NCBI RefSeq assembly: GCF_029581575.1
Contig: NZ_CP089975.1
Location: 992,001-1,056,000, forward strand
Direction: 5' to 3'
Length of the DNA: 64,000 nucleotides
Origin: Moraxella nasibovis
GTDB lineage: Bacteria; Pseudomonadota; Gammaproteobacteria; Pseudomonadales; Moraxellaceae
A model generated the notes under the pieces. The model was not told the origin of the DNA and did no database searches. It worked only from the letters and a program-made list of their open reading frames with translations. Made by a program: the position numbers and the translations under genes. This document shows positions 53,046-59,139 of the stretch, in pieces. Numbering within the stretch: position 1 is the stretch's first letter; each line of letters starts with the position of its first letter.

Positions 53046-53077
53046 AAGCCGATAGCTTAGCAATAAGTTATCGGCTT
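53046..53077. other. Strong hairpin overlapping the end of the ImmA-like gene
   Basis: 14-bp stem with one mismatch (AAGCCGATA...TATCGGCTT) and a 4-base GCAA loop. It has no T run on the minus strand. It could stabilise the upstream mRNA or separate it from the 49-residue gene. Confidence 0.45.
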
Positions 53078-53617
53078 TTGCATTCTTTATACCTTAGTGC
53101 TGCGCACTGGTAGCTGATATTGTATTTTTTCATTATTTCATCAATAGATAGCCCAACACACCCATCTAGAGGTGCTAATAACTCAGCAGCAAACTGGTTG
53201 GCTTGCCATTCACTGTCTTCGTAAGGTTTGTGTGCTGATGGGTTGCTGCGATTCAGAGTGGTTGCGACACCTTTATGCATGAACAAATGGCCAAAATTCA
53301 TGAGCTATAGTAAATCTTGCACGACTGTCATTATTATACAAGGCGTCAAATACATCTTGTCTAATGTACATTACCATATCATCCGGTGATACAGACGCTT
53401 CCACATCTTTCATGTAGCCTTTTTCCTTTGGTTCAAAAGAAAAATCATAGGCTGTGGCTTTGGGCAAATCAATCTCAAGGCAATTTAATACATCAAAGGG
53501 TTTGTGTATGTCGTCTTGAAAATGCTGACGAACAAGACGGGCAAAGCCTCTAATCTCATGCTTGCTTCGTGGTTTGACACGCACGCCTTTATTGTATAAA
53601 TGCAGATTATTTAACAT
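53068..53617 (-). pseudogene. ImmA/IrrE-type metallopeptidase, frameshifted inside its zinc motif
   Basis: The first part (53617-53273, strong AAAGGAGGTATA site) ends ...RFTIAHEFWPFVHA. The next frame reads FGHLFMHKGVATT and continues with EWQANQFAAELLAP. Removing one T from the four T's of GAATTTTGG (plus strand 53293-53296) restores HEFGHLFMH, the HExxH zinc motif, and gives about 182 residues. In ICEBs1-like systems ImmA cleaves the partner XRE repressor. As written the peptidase would be inactive. Confidence 0.8.
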
Positions 53618-53967
53618 TATACCTCCTTTAAAAACTGCATGATTTTTTTAATGTCTAGTGTTTGATTGTCTAGTTTCCGTGCAAACATTAATGCCAGCTC
53701 TGCCTCACAGTCATTGGCGGGCTTGATGACAATATCCTGATCAAGCGTACTTGCTACTGCAACAAGTTCATTGGCTTGTTGTGCGGATAGCCCAAGATAG
53801 TCAATAATTTTGTTTAGCAAATTGGCATTAATTGGCTTTTTGCCGGTCTCAATTGCTGACAAATAAGGTGCAGATACGCCAATATTTTCCGCCATGGTTT
53901 TTAGCATGATATTATGTTCAATGCGTAATATTCTAAGCATTTTACCAAATTCTGTAACGGTTGCCAT
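53617..53967 (-). CDS. XRE-family repressor, partner of ImmA-like protein
   Basis: 116 residues with an N-terminal helix-turn-helix (FGKMLRILRIEHNIMLKTMAENIGVSAPYLSAIETGKKPIN) and a helical C-terminal part. Its stop overlaps the ImmA start (TAATG). A perfect palindrome in its promoter (54021-54036) suggests autorepression. This is a second regulator besides the S24 repressor. It could control the local module or work as a toxin-antitoxin-like pair. Confidence 0.8.
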   Translation of the reverse strand: MATVTEFGKMLRILRIEHNIMLKTMAENIGVSAPYLSAIETGKKPINANLLNKIIDYLGLSAQQANELVAVASTLDQDIVIKPANDCEAELALMFARKLDNQTLDIKKIMQFLKEV

Positions 53968-54019
53968 AAAACAGCTCCTAATGATGATTGAGCAAGAAAT
54001 AAATCTTGTCAGATATATA

Positions 54020-54047
54020 TTATCCTATAGGATAATTATTTGTCAAG
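54020..54047 (-). promoter_or_regulatory. Promoter of the XRE/ImmA module with palindromic operator
   Basis: Minus strand TTGACA (54047-54042), 16 bases, GATAAT (54025-54020). The perfect 16-bp palindrome TTATCCTATAGGATAA (54021-54036) covers the spacer and -10 box, a typical autorepression layout. Confidence 0.75.
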
Positions 54048-54071
54048 AAAAAATCTTAAAATATGTTAAAT

Positions 54072-54096
54072 AAAAAACCACCCGCGGGGGTGGTTT
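54072..54096 (-). terminator. Terminator after the three-gene cassette
   Basis: Minus strand AAACCACCC, 4-base loop, GGGTGGTTT, then T residues. It separates the repressor-linked cassette from the XRE promoter. Confidence 0.85.
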
Positions 54097-54103
54097 GGTG
54101 GGC

Positions 54104-54715
54104 TTAGGCTTTGGGATTGTGTGAAAGATTTACCCAAAAGTGACGGATGTGGTAATCGTAACCAGAATAAATGTGGTTATGGGTGCTATCGAAGTATAGC
54201 TTGCGATTCGGAATGTTGGAACAATCAATTACAGGATCTTTAATGCTGCCAATATAGTCTCTCCAACCCTGTAGAGAATCAAGTGCGGTTTTGTGTGAAT
54301 TCTGGTGATAGACGATAATTCCGCCTCTGTACTCGCAATCATTGCCACGGCTATAACGCGTGGTTAGTTGATTGAAGCCTTTATAAGTGTTCTCATCTCC
54401 TTTTTGGAGCTTGCATTCACCAAGCCATTTGAATTTTCCACATTGAATATTGATGTCCACATGGCCATTGTGATTGCTATCGTGACTAGCATTATACCCC
54501 ATGGCCTTTAATGCTGTGACCAAGCAAGTGGTAATTTGATCTTCTCCAGCCTTATACCACTGGTTGGCATTTGATGTCAGCTCATAAAGTTGAAATTCAA
54601 CATCTTTATTTAATTGGTCTGTAAACCCATCATAATCACCCTCACTAATAGCTTTTTTGCGGTTAAACAGGCTTTGTTCGAGTGGATCTGTTAGGTCAAA
54701 TTGGAAGCTAATCAT
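54104..54715 (-). CDS. Predicted PD-(D/E)XK nuclease, third gene of the repressor-linked cassette
   Basis: 203 residues from the ATG at 54715 (TGATG overlap with the preceding gene). A nuclease-like core is visible: Glu58 (KAGEDQI), Asp87 (GHVDINI), E100-C-K102 (WLGECKL), that is E...D-x12-ExK, plus a following NQLTTRY stretch like a QxxxY motif. This is the usual restriction-endonuclease-fold signature. Overall similarity to a known family was not recognised. It could cut DNA or RNA as the effector of an exclusion or defence system. Ends at a strong terminator. Confidence 0.72.
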   Translation of the reverse strand: MISFQFDLTDPLEQSLFNRKKAISEGDYDGFTDQLNKDVEFQLYELTSNANQWYKAGEDQITTCLVTALKAMGYNASHDSNHNGHVDINIQCGKFKWLGECKLQKGDENTYKGFNQLTTRYSRGNDCEYRGGIIVYHQNSHKTALDSLQGWRDYIGSIKDPVIDCSNIPNRKLYFDSTHNHIYSGYDYHIRHFWVNLSHNPKA

Positions 54716-55173
54716 CAAGACATCACCTCTTGGCAAAAATCTTGAGAGATTTTAAAATAGCTAGTTACAGCATCCGAGAAAGTCTTAGCATCCACTTCCT
54801 GCTCGGTAATTGGGTGGATATATCGTGAGCCATCGATAATATATTGACTAAATTCCTGAAAGTCCATGGAGATGCTTTCATTTGATAAATCATTATGTAC
54901 TTCAAACATCTGTTCTAGTACATTGATTTGTGGATCAGATAGTATATATAGTGTAAGCTTGAGAATACGAACACTGCTTTCATCATCGCCTTGTAGTTGG
55001 GCTATTTGCTTTAATCGATGATAATTAAGATAGAGCAGGGTGTTTGGACGTGCGTGATTTGCCAAAAAATCTAATATATTTCTTAGCGAAGAATATGTTT
55101 CAGACTCATGGGTGCAGCCATGTGTTTGACTGATTTTGTCAAGGTACAGCTGCACAATATCATGTTTTGTCAT
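54715..55173 (-). CDS. Unknown helical protein, second gene of the cassette
   Basis: 152 residues, acidic and predicted mostly helical (MTKHDIVQLYLDKISQTHG; HRLKQIAQLQGDDESSVRILKLTLYIL). A winged-helix-like block around residues 50-95 is possible. Starts in ATGA overlap with the first cassette gene and ends in TGATG overlap with the nuclease-like gene, so the three proteins are probably made in fixed ratio and may form a complex. No family recognised. Confidence 0.7.
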   Translation of the reverse strand: MTKHDIVQLYLDKISQTHGCTHESETYSSLRNILDFLANHARPNTLLYLNYHRLKQIAQLQGDDESSVRILKLTLYILSDPQINVLEQMFEVHNDLSNESISMDFQEFSQYIIDGSRYIHPITEQEVDAKTFSDAVTSYFKISQDFCQEVMS

Positions 55174-56228
55174 TTTTTCTTAGAGAAGGTGACGAGCTTA
55201 TTTATTATATCACAAAATCCCTGATGGCTCTTGCATGAAATTTTGGCATAAGACACAACCAATATATCTTTTTGAAACTGCTGCCACGGCATACCAATGC
55301 TAACTTCATTTTCTTTCTGATATGCCTTATATATGTCATATACACTGACATCCGCAGCCTTAGCACCTGCCGTATGATAAGCAGTCTCTCGAGCATCTTC
55401 AATGCCATGTCTGACTTTTGCTCGATGTGATACACCTTCATCATCAGCAAATGCCATTTCTTTCACTTTGCCAACTGGCTCCTTGTATAGATTCTCAATA
55501 CAGGGAAATAAGTCAATCCCCAGATCCTTGATTACTTGTCCTGCAGAATCATTATTGGTAGCATTTACTTCTGAGCGAATAATACGCACCAGTTTGGCAA
55601 TTTGAGCTTGAAGATTTTCAACTGGTGATTTGCTTGCTAAATCTGCAGAAAGAATCAAGCGTTTGTTATTCTTGTCAAATATCAGCATGTCAAAAGCTGT
55701 AATTTCAATTGTCTTGTAAGCAATAACACGCTCAAAATCTTCATCCAAGTGTTCTGATTTAAGTGCATAAACACCAAGGTCAATCTTGACAGGTAGTACC
55801 CTTTCTGACTTATAAAGATAGAAATCGATGCCATCCTCTTGTATTTTTACACAGTTAAAATCCACCGTCTTGTCCATAATGGAGCTGTAGTCGTTATTGA
55901 ATGGTGTGGACGCATTATTAATAGCAGAATGGATTTCATCCAAGTTTTCTAGATCTTCATAGATAAACGCAATCTTATCTCGATACAAGATAACTGACAT
56001 CAAATCTTGTGCGATTTCAGAAGTGATTTTTGCAATAATGTCATTATTGATATCAGATTCGGATAGATTGTCAATCATGCGAATGGTATCATCCCATGAA
56101 CGCTTGGTTGCCAATCCAGCTTTTTCTAATATGGGATTAATATCATTTCTTAGTGTATATCCGCGATTTTTATAGAAGTTAATCGCTTGTTTGATGAAAA
56201 ATTTTCTATCTTCAAAGTTTGTCTGCAT
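55170..56228 (-). CDS. Unknown protein, first gene of the cassette downstream of the repressor
   Basis: 352 residues; GAGGTGAG precedes the ATG at 56228, 47 bases after the repressor stop. Features: an N-terminal helix-rich part (FFIKQAINFYKNRGYTL), a beta-rich centre (FYLYKSERVLPVKIDLGVYAL, AFDMLIFDKNNKRLILSADL), then an Ala/Lys-rich C-terminal part (DARETAYHTAGAKAADVSVYDIY). No enzyme motif stands out. It may be the sensor or adaptor of the cassette. AT-rich compared with the core prophage genes. Confidence 0.7.
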   Translation of the reverse strand: MQTNFEDRKFFIKQAINFYKNRGYTLRNDINPILEKAGLATKRSWDDTIRMIDNLSESDINNDIIAKITSEIAQDLMSVILYRDKIAFIYEDLENLDEIHSAINNASTPFNNDYSSIMDKTVDFNCVKIQEDGIDFYLYKSERVLPVKIDLGVYALKSEHLDEDFERVIAYKTIEITAFDMLIFDKNNKRLILSADLASKSPVENLQAQIAKLVRIIRSEVNATNNDSAGQVIKDLGIDLFPCIENLYKEPVGKVKEMAFADDEGVSHRAKVRHGIEDARETAYHTAGAKAADVSVYDIYKAYQKENEVSIGMPWQQFQKDILVVSYAKISCKSHQGFCDIINKLVTFSKKK

Positions 56229-56275
56229 ATCTCACCTCAATGTTTTATTAATATTGAAAATTGATAGTTAAGGAA

Positions 56276-57022
56276 TCAATACTCCACCAACTTCCCAACC
56301 ACCTTACCCACCAATCGGCATTCGCCCATCGGTAGCATCTTTTGTTCTGGCCAGTCAGGATTGAGTGGCTTTAGGTACATATCGGATTCGGTTTCACCAA
56401 GTACGAGCTGCTTAAATGTCGCTTCGGTGTCATCATTGCACTGCACCACGATCAAATCCCCGTCTTTGAGCGCAAGCGTTGAGATATTTGGCTCAACATA
56501 GATGATGTCATCAGGCTCAAACTTGGGCAGCATTGAGCGACCACGCACCTTGAGTGCAAAGCCGTCGGCTGATAAATTGCGTGGGCGTGGATAATAGCCC
56601 AAGGCATCATCTAGGGTCACAGGTGAAACTTCTGACCATGAGCCAGCCGCCACCCAGCTGATGAGTGGTACATCATTGGCAGGCATGGCAATGCGCACTG
56701 TATCGACAATGTCATGCGCCTGCTCATCGGTCAATATACCGCCAGTCTGTAGTGCGGCAATCTGCGCTTTTAGGTCATTAAGCACATCGGATTTATCGGC
56801 TTGGGGTGGGGTATCGGCGGTCATTGAGCCTTGGCCGGTCAAAAGCCAACCAACATTAACACCTGTTACTTGTGCGAATTGCTCAAGCGTATCTTTGCCA
56901 ATCTGACCCTTTTTCCACTTGGATGCAGCTTGGGCGGATTTGCCCGCTTCGATGGCTGCTTTTGACCAAGATAAGCCTGAATGATCCAAAGCCTGCTGCA
57001 TTCTTGAAACAAGATCTGACAT
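56276..57022 (-). CDS. S24/LexA-like prophage repressor (CI type)
   Basis: 248 residues. N-terminal helix-turn-helix (LSWSKAAIEAGKSAQAASKWKKG), linker, then an S24 peptidase domain with the A126-G127 cleavage site (WVAAGSW), catalytic Ser163 (GRSMLPKF) and Lys204 (EATFKQL). RecA-stimulated self-cleavage would induce the prophage. The ATG at 57022 gives the correct helix-turn-helix spacing; an upstream start at 57037 adds five residues. Operators lie 23-81 bases upstream. Its transcript probably continues into the three-gene cassette. Confidence 0.92.
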   Translation of the reverse strand: MSDLVSRMQQALDHSGLSWSKAAIEAGKSAQAASKWKKGQIGKDTLEQFAQVTGVNVGWLLTGQGSMTADTPPQADKSDVLNDLKAQIAALQTGGILTDEQAHDIVDTVRIAMPANDVPLISWVAAGSWSEVSPVTLDDALGYYPRPRNLSADGFALKVRGRSMLPKFEPDDIIYVEPNISTLALKDGDLIVVQCNDDTEATFKQLVLGETESDMYLKPLNPDWPEQKMLPMGECRLVGKVVGKLVEY

Positions 57023-57044
57023 GGTGTTAGTCCTCAAAATTTAC

Positions 57045-57103
57045 TATACCTTAAGTATAATATTATACCAAAAGTATAGAAAAATAAAGCAACCAAAGGT
57101 ATA
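57045..57103. promoter_or_regulatory. OR-like operators and PRM region
   Basis: Three 15-bp sites: TATAC-CTTAA-GTATA (57045-57059), TATAC-CAAAA-GTATA (57064-57078) and GCAAC-CAAAG-GTATA (57089-57103). A minus-strand TATAAT (57067-57062) overlaps the second site and is the likely -10 of the repressor promoter. Its -35 is weak, as in lambda PRM. Confidence 0.72.
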
Positions 57104-57110
57104 TTTATTC

Positions 57111-57139
57111 TTGACTTTTGTTTAAACTTAGGGTTTAAT
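57111..57139 (+). promoter_or_regulatory. PR-type promoter of the rightward operon with embedded operator
   Basis: TTGACT (57111-57116), 17 bases, TTTAAT (57134-57139). Between the boxes is TAAAC-TTAGG-GTTTA (57123-57137), a fourth operator of the same class. The Cro-like gene starts at 57178. Confidence 0.75.
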
Positions 57140-57177
57140 TAGCGATATTATTGGTTTAATCATATCAAGGTGAAAGA

Positions 57178-57399
57178 ATGAATAAAAACCCAGTCCGAGA
57201 TGTGGTCAAGCATTTCGGCGGTCGAGAGAAAGTTGCCAGCATTACGGGCGTTACCTATATGGCGGTGAAAAAGTGGGAAGAGCGTGGCTATTTCCCACGC
57301 ACCGACTACACAGGTGAAACGACACACGCCCAAAAGCTTGCAACAGCCAGTCAAGGTGCATTCTCAGAAAGCGAACTGTTGCCGAAGTATCAAGGATGA
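57178..57399 (+). CDS. Cro-like/YdaS-type regulator
   Basis: 73 residues with VVKHFGGREKVASITGVTYMAVKKWEERGYFP, a Cro/YdaS helix-turn-helix. AAGGTGAAAG precedes the ATG. First gene of the rightward operon and divergent from the repressor, so it should shut down the repressor promoter in the lytic cycle by binding the shared operators. Confidence 0.85.
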   Translation: MNKNPVRDVVKHFGGREKVASITGVTYMAVKKWEERGYFPRTDYTGETTHAQKLATASQGAFSESELLPKYQG

Positions 57400-57563
57400 A
57401 TATGACCACCTTCAGCCGTCCAAAAGACCAGTCCTGCGTCCGTGAATCGGATGCATGGCTGGCACGCCATGGTAATGGTATGGATAGGATTGCAAAGCCA
57501 ATCTCGCCTGCCATCAGTGCCGCCCATCACAAACGCCAACGCAGAAAACAAAAGGGGGCGTGA
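57396..57563 (+). CDS. Small basic prophage protein
   Basis: 55 residues, start overlapping cro by ATGA, stop overlapping the next start by TGATG. Basic C-terminus (AAHHKRQRRKQKGA) and a middle block CVRESDAWLARHGNG. The position corresponds to that of lambda cII, but no helix-turn-helix is visible. Family not recognised. Confidence 0.62.
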   Translation: MNMTTFSRPKDQSCVRESDAWLARHGNGMDRIAKPISPAISAAHHKRQRRKQKGA

Positions 57564-58066
57564 TGCATTTTTATAATTTCAACATCAAAGACTATCGGGC
57601 AAAAACCGCCCATCTGTCACCAGTTGAGCACTACATCTATCGGTCGCTACTTGACTGGTACTATCTGACTGAAAAGCCATTCCCTTGTGATATCACCCAT
57701 ATCGCACGCAAACTGCTATTGTCCAGTGATGATGAAATGCAAGCACTGCAAAATGTGCTGGATGAGTTTTTTGTGTTCAAAACAGACGAACATGGAAAGA
57801 GTTGTTATCACAACAAGCGTATTGACCGAGAATTGGGTATAGGTGAGCGCATGCCATGGCATAAATGGAAATATGTCAGAATGAGAGTATTTCAACGAGA
57901 TAATTTTACATGTGTTTATTGTGGCGTAAAAAATGTTCAGCTTGAGTGTGACCACATTCTTCCAATTTCAAAAGGTGGCTCGGATGATATTGACAACTTA
58001 GCCACCGCTTGCAAAAGTTGCAACTGTAGCAAAAACAACAAATTGTTGGAGGATTGGCTGAAATGA
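57563..58066 (+). CDS. DUF1376 (YdaU-like) domain fused to an HNH endonuclease
   Basis: 167 residues. Residues 1 to about 95 are a DUF1376 domain (HLSPVEHYIYRSLLDWYYLTEKPFP, IARKLLL, VLDEFFVF, CYHNKRIDREL). From about 110 an HNH module follows: CVYCG, CDHILPISKGGSDDIDNL, CKSCN. DUF1376 proteins belong to phage replication modules. The nuclease may help replication or recombination, or be a homing-type insertion. The gene is followed by a second DUF1376 gene with ATGA overlap. Confidence 0.85.
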   Translation: MHFYNFNIKDYRAKTAHLSPVEHYIYRSLLDWYYLTEKPFPCDITHIARKLLLSSDDEMQALQNVLDEFFVFKTDEHGKSCYHNKRIDRELGIGERMPWHKWKYVRMRVFQRDNFTCVYCGVKNVQLECDHILPISKGGSDDIDNLATACKSCNCSKNNKLLEDWLK

Positions 58067-59139
58067 CAACTATTCATTATATCAACCACAATTTTAGTGA
58101 TTGGGACAGTCAAACCAAACACATGAGCCGACTTGAGCGCAGTATCTATCTAGATTTACGAACATTATATTTTAGTGATGCGAGTGCAAATAATGGCAAA
58201 ATTGATGTAAGCGATTTTGAATTATTGTGCTATCGCCTGTCATGCCGTACCGAAGAAGAAATCAGCGCCCTAAAATTACTGCTCAAGGACAAATTTAAGA
58301 AGAATGGAAATTCTTACCGTCATGCTGATTGGGATAGACAAATCAAAGCAATTCAGTGGGAAATCAAGAAAGGTAACACTGGTAACACTGGTAACACTGG
58401 TAACACTGGTAACACTATTGGTAACGCATTGGGTAACGATGGTAACGGTGATGGTAACGCATTGGGTAACACAGGGAAACCACTGAGTAACGCAGAACGC
58501 ACAGCAAAAGCCAAAGCTGAGCGCAAAAAACTACTATCTGATTTGGCTACTGCAGGTGTTGAAACGCCAGCAAATACACCAATTGCAGAACTAAGAGCAT
58601 TGCACGAGCGACATTTTGCAAACACCGTCGGTAATAACGATGGTAACGCATTGGGTAACGATGGTAACGCTCAAAAACCGTCTAATAACCAAGAACCATT
58701 AACCAATAACCAAGATATAAATACACACACAAACGCGCGCGAGAAAATTTTTGAAAAAATCGGCGATTTGATGGCTTGGCAAGCACCACCCATCGAAGAA
58801 ATGCAATCAGAGCTGATCAGATCAGGGATTAATCGCACGCTGAGCCAAGCTCAGTATGATACTGCCATTGGTGATTTTAAGGCGTACTACGAGCAGCAAG
58901 CACAGCTTGGCAAACCGCTCAATACCGATGCCATCCGCAAATCCAAGCTCAGGCAGTGGCTTGCTCGTGAAAAACCACAGGCACTGCCCACCAACCGCAT
59001 GGATGAGCTACGAGCTTTGGCAATGATAGCACCAGTCAATGAATTTGGTGAGTTGCCATCTGAGCATGATTTGAATTTTTATCAATCAACCGTCAATGGG
59101 GTGAGTTATGAACAATCTGGTACCAATCAACAACACTGA
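58063..59139 (+). CDS. DUF1376-containing phage replication protein with Gly-Asn repeat linker
   Basis: 358 residues; GGAGG precedes the ATG at 58063. The N-terminal DUF1376 domain (NFSDWDSQTKHMSRLERSIYLDLRTLYF) is followed by a linker of Gly-Asn-Thr/Ala/Asp repeats (about residues 104-136 and again near 194-203). The C-terminal part resembles the DNA-binding region of DnaT/replication proteins (SQAQYDTAIGDFKAYYEQQAQLGKPLNTDAIRKSKLRQWLARE). The DNA of the linker has 13 GGTAAC repeats that may be the replication origin. Confidence 0.82.
   Translation: MTTIHYINHNFSDWDSQTKHMSRLERSIYLDLRTLYFSDASANNGKIDVSDFELLCYRLSCRTEEEISALKLLLKDKFKKNGNSYRHADWDRQIKAIQWEIKKGNTGNTGNTGNTGNTIGNALGNDGNGDGNALGNTGKPLSNAERTAKAKAERKKLLSDLATAGVETPANTPIAELRALHERHFANTVGNNDGNALGNDGNAQKPSNNQEPLTNNQDINTHTNAREKIFEKIGDLMAWQAPPIEEMQSELIRSGINRTLSQAQYDTAIGDFKAYYEQQAQLGKPLNTDAIRKSKLRQWLAREKPQALPTNRMDELRALAMIAPVNEFGELPSEHDLNFYQSTVNGVSYEQSGTNQQH
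58372..58470 (+). repeat. GGTAAC repeat array, candidate iterons
   Basis: Five perfect tandem copies of GGTAACACT (58372-58416), then five further GGTAAC hexamers at 58420, 58432, 58441, 58453 and 58465. They lie inside the replication gene, as iterons do in lambda O. Confidence 0.85.
58642..58669 (+). repeat. Second copy of a 28-bp composite GGTAAC unit
   Basis: Identical base for base to 58420-58447. It contains three GGTAAC hexamers (58642, 58654, 58663). Confidence 0.88.

Follow-up and report, generated by a model that had tools for sequence, protein, structure and literature searches.

We analyzed a 64-kb window of DNA (positions 992001–1056000 of a 2.23-Mb single-contig genome), in which three overlapping minus-strand genes lie directly below an S24/CI-type prophage repressor, as the original prediction had it. 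The repressor gene (56276–57037, minus strand; Peptidase_S24 at 4.6e-20, phrog_4 at 4.4e-42) is separated by a 47-nt gap (56229–56275) from the start of gene A (55170–56228, 352 aa, a proposed sensor or scaffold), which is followed by gene B (54715–55173, 152 aa, a proposed adaptor) and gene C (54104–54715, 203 aa with the ATG at 54715 as start, a probable PD-(D/E)XK nuclease). A and B overlap by ATGA and B and C by TGATG, and these overlaps suggest that the three are co-transcribed. An intrinsic terminator on the same strand closes the cassette (54075–54096, dG −13.8 kcal/mol, z −2.9); a strong one had been predicted at 54072–54096, and this was the sole minus-strand terminator-like site detected within 53950–57250. 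The 47-nt gap held no minus-strand promoter-like or terminator-like match. With no terminator intervening, we infer that A, B and C are expressed from the repressor transcript, yet because promoter-like matches occur on the minus strand inside the repressor gene (56620–56591 and 56760–56733), A could have its own promoter. G+C content was 36.4% for A, 36.8% for B and 40.2% for C, with the window at 45.8% and the repressor gene at 50.3%.

The surrounding prophage genes include RecT-like and exonuclease VIII-like genes, regulators and primosomal-type genes, together with genes for a terminase large subunit and a Holliday junction resolvase. Moraxella phage Mcat13 was the nearest phage record for A, B and C alike, and carries the trio, unannotated there. 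Beyond the terminator (53068–53617), an ImmA/IrrE-like (M78) gene is present as two overlapping open reading frames that part near the HEF motif; its counterpart in a genome of the same genus, G006 (L141), is a single frame reading through HEFGH. On the other side of the repressor (57560–59139), a 168-aa open reading frame begins like a primosomal-type protein and ends like an HNH endonuclease, and a similar N-terminus recurs in the next protein, an arrangement that resembles insertion of an HNH element into a duplicated gene.

In protein C, residues E58, D87, E100, K102, Q116 and Y121 were invariant in 57/57 non-redundant trios; the originally predicted Glu58, Asp87, E100-x-K102 and QxxxY-like stretch (here QxxxxY) are among them. 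AlphaFold modelling, which had been proposed as a check, returned a nuclease-type core: in the AlphaFold2 model (pLDDT 94.9, pTM 0.90), the listed secondary-structure elements, from which we judged the topology, run H58–71, E76–81, E85–92, E95–103, H107–121 and E130–137, an alpha-beta-beta-beta-alpha-beta core in which the motif residues fall, as expected, on the helix, the strands and the second helix. Both the sequence motifs and the modelled topology are those of the superfamily, and C is thus very probably a PD-(D/E)XK nuclease. Near its C-terminus lies an H-x-H...RH stretch, of which H192 was invariant in 57/57, while H179 and H181 were invariant in the first 15 sequences but not in a set of 30. 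C matched phrog_9664 (8.6e-48) and no curated family in Pfam, NCBIfam or PADLOC; PDDEXK_9 was reached, at 5.6e-4, by one of 67 scanned members of the A, B and C families, and profile searches of solved structures returned chance-level matches only. A comparison of C with the YhcG PDDEXK domain (hhalign 0.2%) yielded no relation and was set aside. In the same type of comparison C scored 88.7% with L117, which is distantly PD-(D/E)XK-like and has no Pfam match of its own. L117, L118 and L119 are proteins of about 410 aa with a distant C-like PD-(D/E)XK domain (ECKFW...Q.LGY), two of them followed, by eye, by HsdR- or helicase-like frames; weak matches at L148–L151 resemble these three.

For protein A, AlphaFold2 gave a confident model (pLDDT 90.6, pTM 0.88) with a helical N-terminal part followed by an alpha/beta part that bears a long hairpin. 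A matched phrog_12777 (1.9e-20) and B matched phrog_11490 (1.7e-6); these two, like phrog_9664, are families of unknown function. None of the three window proteins gave a match above cut-off in Pfam, NCBIfam or PADLOC, and when the 67 family members (23 A, 20 B, 24 C) were compared with Pfam, four families came up, each through a single member. Weak matches to DUF2028, MsyB, TamA and the acetolactate synthase small subunit fell below cut-offs and were rejected. The literature search found the trio under no name, which does not prove its absence from print. The description of the cassette as unrecognised therefore stands for Pfam, NCBIfam and PADLOC but not for PHROGs, which hold it as three families of unknown function, and the cassette may also equal the published 3HP system discussed below; on the best reading, the libraries that we searched give the trio neither a name nor a function so far.

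Co-occurrence of the three genes elsewhere, which the original prediction had called for, was found in other prophages, in chromosomal places and beside restriction genes. A-B-C stood in the same order on the same strand in 104/110 fetched loci, a count that admits matches with E up to 0.01 and uses profiles that include many of the same rows. These loci came from GTDB genomes (18 loci), IMG/VR (scans giving 8, 2, 25 and 29 among the matches listed, some repeated), relatives, phages and E. coli; most were fetched via C, and the window itself is present three times. The median gaps between longest open reading frames were 0 nt (A–B) and −8 nt (B–C). Of the six remaining entries, L006 and L010 contain A without its partners, at a short contig end, and the other four are two loci that were each fetched twice (as L026/L052 and L031/L053). 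A is shortened in L015/L021, which counts among the 104. In genome G114 (L006, L015/L021), A is in two pieces on different contigs, the first part near a contig end and the last after a transposase-like frame, with B and C complete. The C sequences fell into 62 clusters at 95% identity, and removing L015/L021, L026, L031 and the P2-type clusters L079 and L080/L081 left the set of 57 trios. Across these, the distances of A, B and C correlated (Mantel r 0.877, 0.865 and 0.837; permuted maximum 0.161), and the trio is inherited as one unit. Comparison of the window with Mcat13 gave dN/dS values of 0.117 for A, 0.404 for B and 0.109 for C; all three are under purifying selection. Given these values and the order kept in 104/110 loci, the trio is more than a chance grouping.

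The trio spreads from Proteobacteria to Bacteroidota, with hosts in the GTDB scan, by record title, such as Acinetobacter, Psychrobacter, Gilliamella, Paraburkholderia, Erythrobacter, Roseomonas, Methylobacterium and Catalimonadaceae. Within this range the family is patchy and rare: A was present in 10/194 genomes sampled, the window's own included, and C in 2/369 genomes of the class, one of them the window's own. Other samples for C, each including its centre genome, gave 5/292 (four weak), 1/385 (the centre only) and 5/345 (four weak). One record filed as an Acinetobacter phage, L002 (CAKLQF020000019.1), has the host-type genes entF, fabG, acrR and garK annotated around its trio. Neighbours of the trio elsewhere include HsdR/HsdS/HsdM (L022), HsdM (L013), a YhcG nuclease (L012), DUF4062 (L033) and HTH-M78 (L021), a selection made by eye that gives no measure of enrichment.

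The position beside the repressor is itself exchangeable. In G006 the repressor protein is 98% identical to that of the window, and the flanks match at 96% over 937 and 94% over 1131 aligned positions; the match ends at 54094, within the terminator, and restarts at 56278, at the repressor stop codon. Between these points (54095–56277) the contents are replaced and both flanks retained: G006 carries a plus-strand gene for a C5 cytosine methyltransferase and, on the minus strand like the repressor, a gene for a GHKL-type ATPase. We opened seven repressor-side regions, out of 19 places found; the six genomes concerned other than the window's, G006 among them, gave no match to A. The slot holds an HTH-M78 gene with a DUF4411/PIN-like gene in G004 (L142), a GNAT gene with a small partner in G009 (L144, truncated where the contig ends) and, in G113 (L146), a gene for an AAA_21 ATPase; in three of the seven (L143, L145, L147) we could put no name to the genes. 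By domain content, four of the seven opened slots look like defence or toxin-antitoxin genes. On the corresponding side, Acinetobacter phage AbIPP1 has a regulator and a putative nucleotidyl transferase along with small hypothetical genes. As the contents of G006, G004, G009, G113 and AbIPP1 differ, the slot accepts different cassettes. A small gene that looks lipoprotein-like by eye precedes the trio in L022 (5006–5395), and a similar one precedes the AAA_21 ATPase gene in L146 (1820–2212), perhaps marking a second swap site.

Trio relatives also occupy a second kind of prophage position. In Klebsiella KP12 (L004) they lie between gpA and gpQ of a P2-like prophage, and the KP12 trio DNA, used as a query, matched 28/5426 E. 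coli genomes, always in the chromosome, with 6 of the 28 matches spanning at least 80% of the query. All three of the E. coli loci opened (L016–L018) showed three hypothetical genes between replication and portal genes of P2-like prophages. The gpA–gpQ interval is described in PMC9122126 as a hotspot rich in anti-phage systems, and the same paper reports that three genes from it, none with a clearly predicted domain, defend E. coli against P1 (Rousset et al., 2022). The window copy lies outside this hotspot. We take the three-gene P2-hotspot system of Rousset et al. 2022 to be the Rst_3HP/3HP of later tools.

That the present trio belongs to Rst_3HP/3HP seems to us doubtful, if by no means far-fetched. 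Its relatives are likewise three hypothetical genes in the gpA–gpQ hotspot (L004, L016, L017, L018), and Rst_3HP is reported to be mostly prophage-borne (PMC9090908) and to occur at low frequency across Enterobacterales (PMC13370402). Against this, the E. coli, Klebsiella and Acinetobacter trios that we scanned lack a PADLOC match above chance, a point that weighs little when taken without a positive control. 3HP is tabulated in PMC10855318, which mentions PADLOC 19 times. A PADLOC search of the proteins of L111, L112, L114, L116 and L017 returned no 3HP-labelled match; L111–L116 are a sample of the E. coli P2 hotspot, six opened among 60 listed of 1268 records. L113 and L114 carry a different trio (231, 216 and 105 aa), the first protein of which matches HNH-type CBASS effectors in PADLOC. 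Should the trio be 3HP, defence would already be demonstrated for a relative, and what is new would be the nuclease assignment, the fusions described next and the repressor-side slot; our results would then offer a mechanistic explanation for a published system in which no domains had been recognisable.

Two natural fusions, one locus each, give the strongest hints at how the three proteins might work together. In L026, a Microcoleus MAG, a 995-aa NACHT-HEAT protein ends in C (2.9e-53 with a C profile lacking that row), and neither A nor B was detected at the locus. In L031, a Sphingopyxis MAG, the end of a type I HsdR (residues 1052–1164) matches B at E 1.5e-4 with a profile that excludes that row, the next non-B match being at 0.57; the order there is an HsdM-type gene, HsdR with the B-like C-terminus and a free C, with no A. 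Across these two loci, B is present where C is separate and absent where C is fused, and at each of them C accompanies another likely sensing machine. On this two-locus basis, A would be a sensor, B a coupler or adaptor and C the nuclease. The two natural fusions suggest the logic of the originally predicted three-component system of sensor, adaptor and nuclease, with a putative anti-phage role.

Taken as a whole, we lean towards reading the trio as an anti-phage module of three components that the prophage carries and the lysogen expresses. Transcription from the repressor gene would there read through A, B and C and end at the 54075–54096 terminator. A would sense a sign of a second phage and B would link A to C, the nuclease activity of which would be kept inactive until triggered; C would then cut DNA and so halt the second infection. 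The target may be phage DNA only or, in an abortive response, host DNA too. Control by a trigger appears likelier than control by modification, because the trio is without a methyltransferase. More tentatively, at somewhat below even chances, B-C may be a portable nuclease output plugged onto different phage sensors, with A as a new infection-sensor family; the sensors would then be A in the common form, the type I restriction motor via B, and STAND/NACHT by direct fusion.

Two further explanations would give the nuclease a different purpose. Were the trio a toxin-antitoxin or addiction module, C would be a toxic nuclease restrained by A and B, whose loss kills, and any effect on phages would be secondary. 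The overlapping genes would suit such a module, and the slots of L142 (HTH-M78 with DUF4411/PIN-like) and L144 (small protein with GNAT) resemble toxin-antitoxin pairs. Usual antitoxins are, however, smaller than A, and the fusion of C to a NACHT-HEAT protein, whose end it forms, and its place next to an HsdR-B fusion point to a triggered effector, so that we regard addiction as improbable. More improbable still is that these are the phage's own DNA-metabolism genes, with C a recombination, replication or packaging nuclease. The QxxxxY motif does recall RecB/Cas4-type nucleases, and a prophage location would be natural for such genes, but this prophage already has RecT-like and exonuclease VIII-like genes, the trio sits on the repressor side, where the sibling G006 has a methyltransferase cassette in its stead, and it is also found among annotated host genes (L002).

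If the portable-output reading of B-C is true, the trio is a new three-component immunity family, largely phage-borne and directed against rival phages, and the sensor-swap logic would make its shared nuclease a link between a small phage-borne module, type I restriction and STAND immunity. On the anti-phage reading as a whole, the trio is a candidate for prophage defence of the host against rivals that is compact, occurs in widely scattered places and can be tested, with obvious catalytic mutants to hand.

Among known systems, lambda rexAB sit just below the repressor, and the trio likewise lies directly below one; it differs in having three genes, including a predicted nuclease. No Rex-named family was matched by A, B or C in Pfam, PHROGs, NCBIfam or PADLOC. 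Hachiman (HamAB) is touched on by the C of one relative, which reaches HamA at E 0.012; a match to a helicase, as in HamB, was absent from the window trio, which we do not assign to Hachiman. ABC-3C systems combine a large first component, a small middle component and an effector, and the trio resembles them with its large A, small B and effector C; it differs in that no ATPase family was found in Pfam among the 23 A members scanned. 3HP is likewise three genes without clear domains between gpA and gpQ, as are the trio relatives there, a likeness of position and description, and the present family differs in occurring also in the repressor-side slot and in chromosomal places. With the PD-(D/E)XK superfamily C shares the catalytic E-D-ExK, the Q....Y and the alpha-beta-beta-beta-alpha-beta core, and it differs in lacking a curated family that covers the window protein and in its conserved H...RH stretch near the C-terminus. 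The window trio had no translocase, methyltransferase or NACHT match, and HsdM, HsdS and HsdR appear only in neighbours and in one fusion; the likeness to type I restriction and to STAND/NACHT systems lies in the fusions themselves, which join B to HsdR (L031) and C to NACHT-HEAT (L026).
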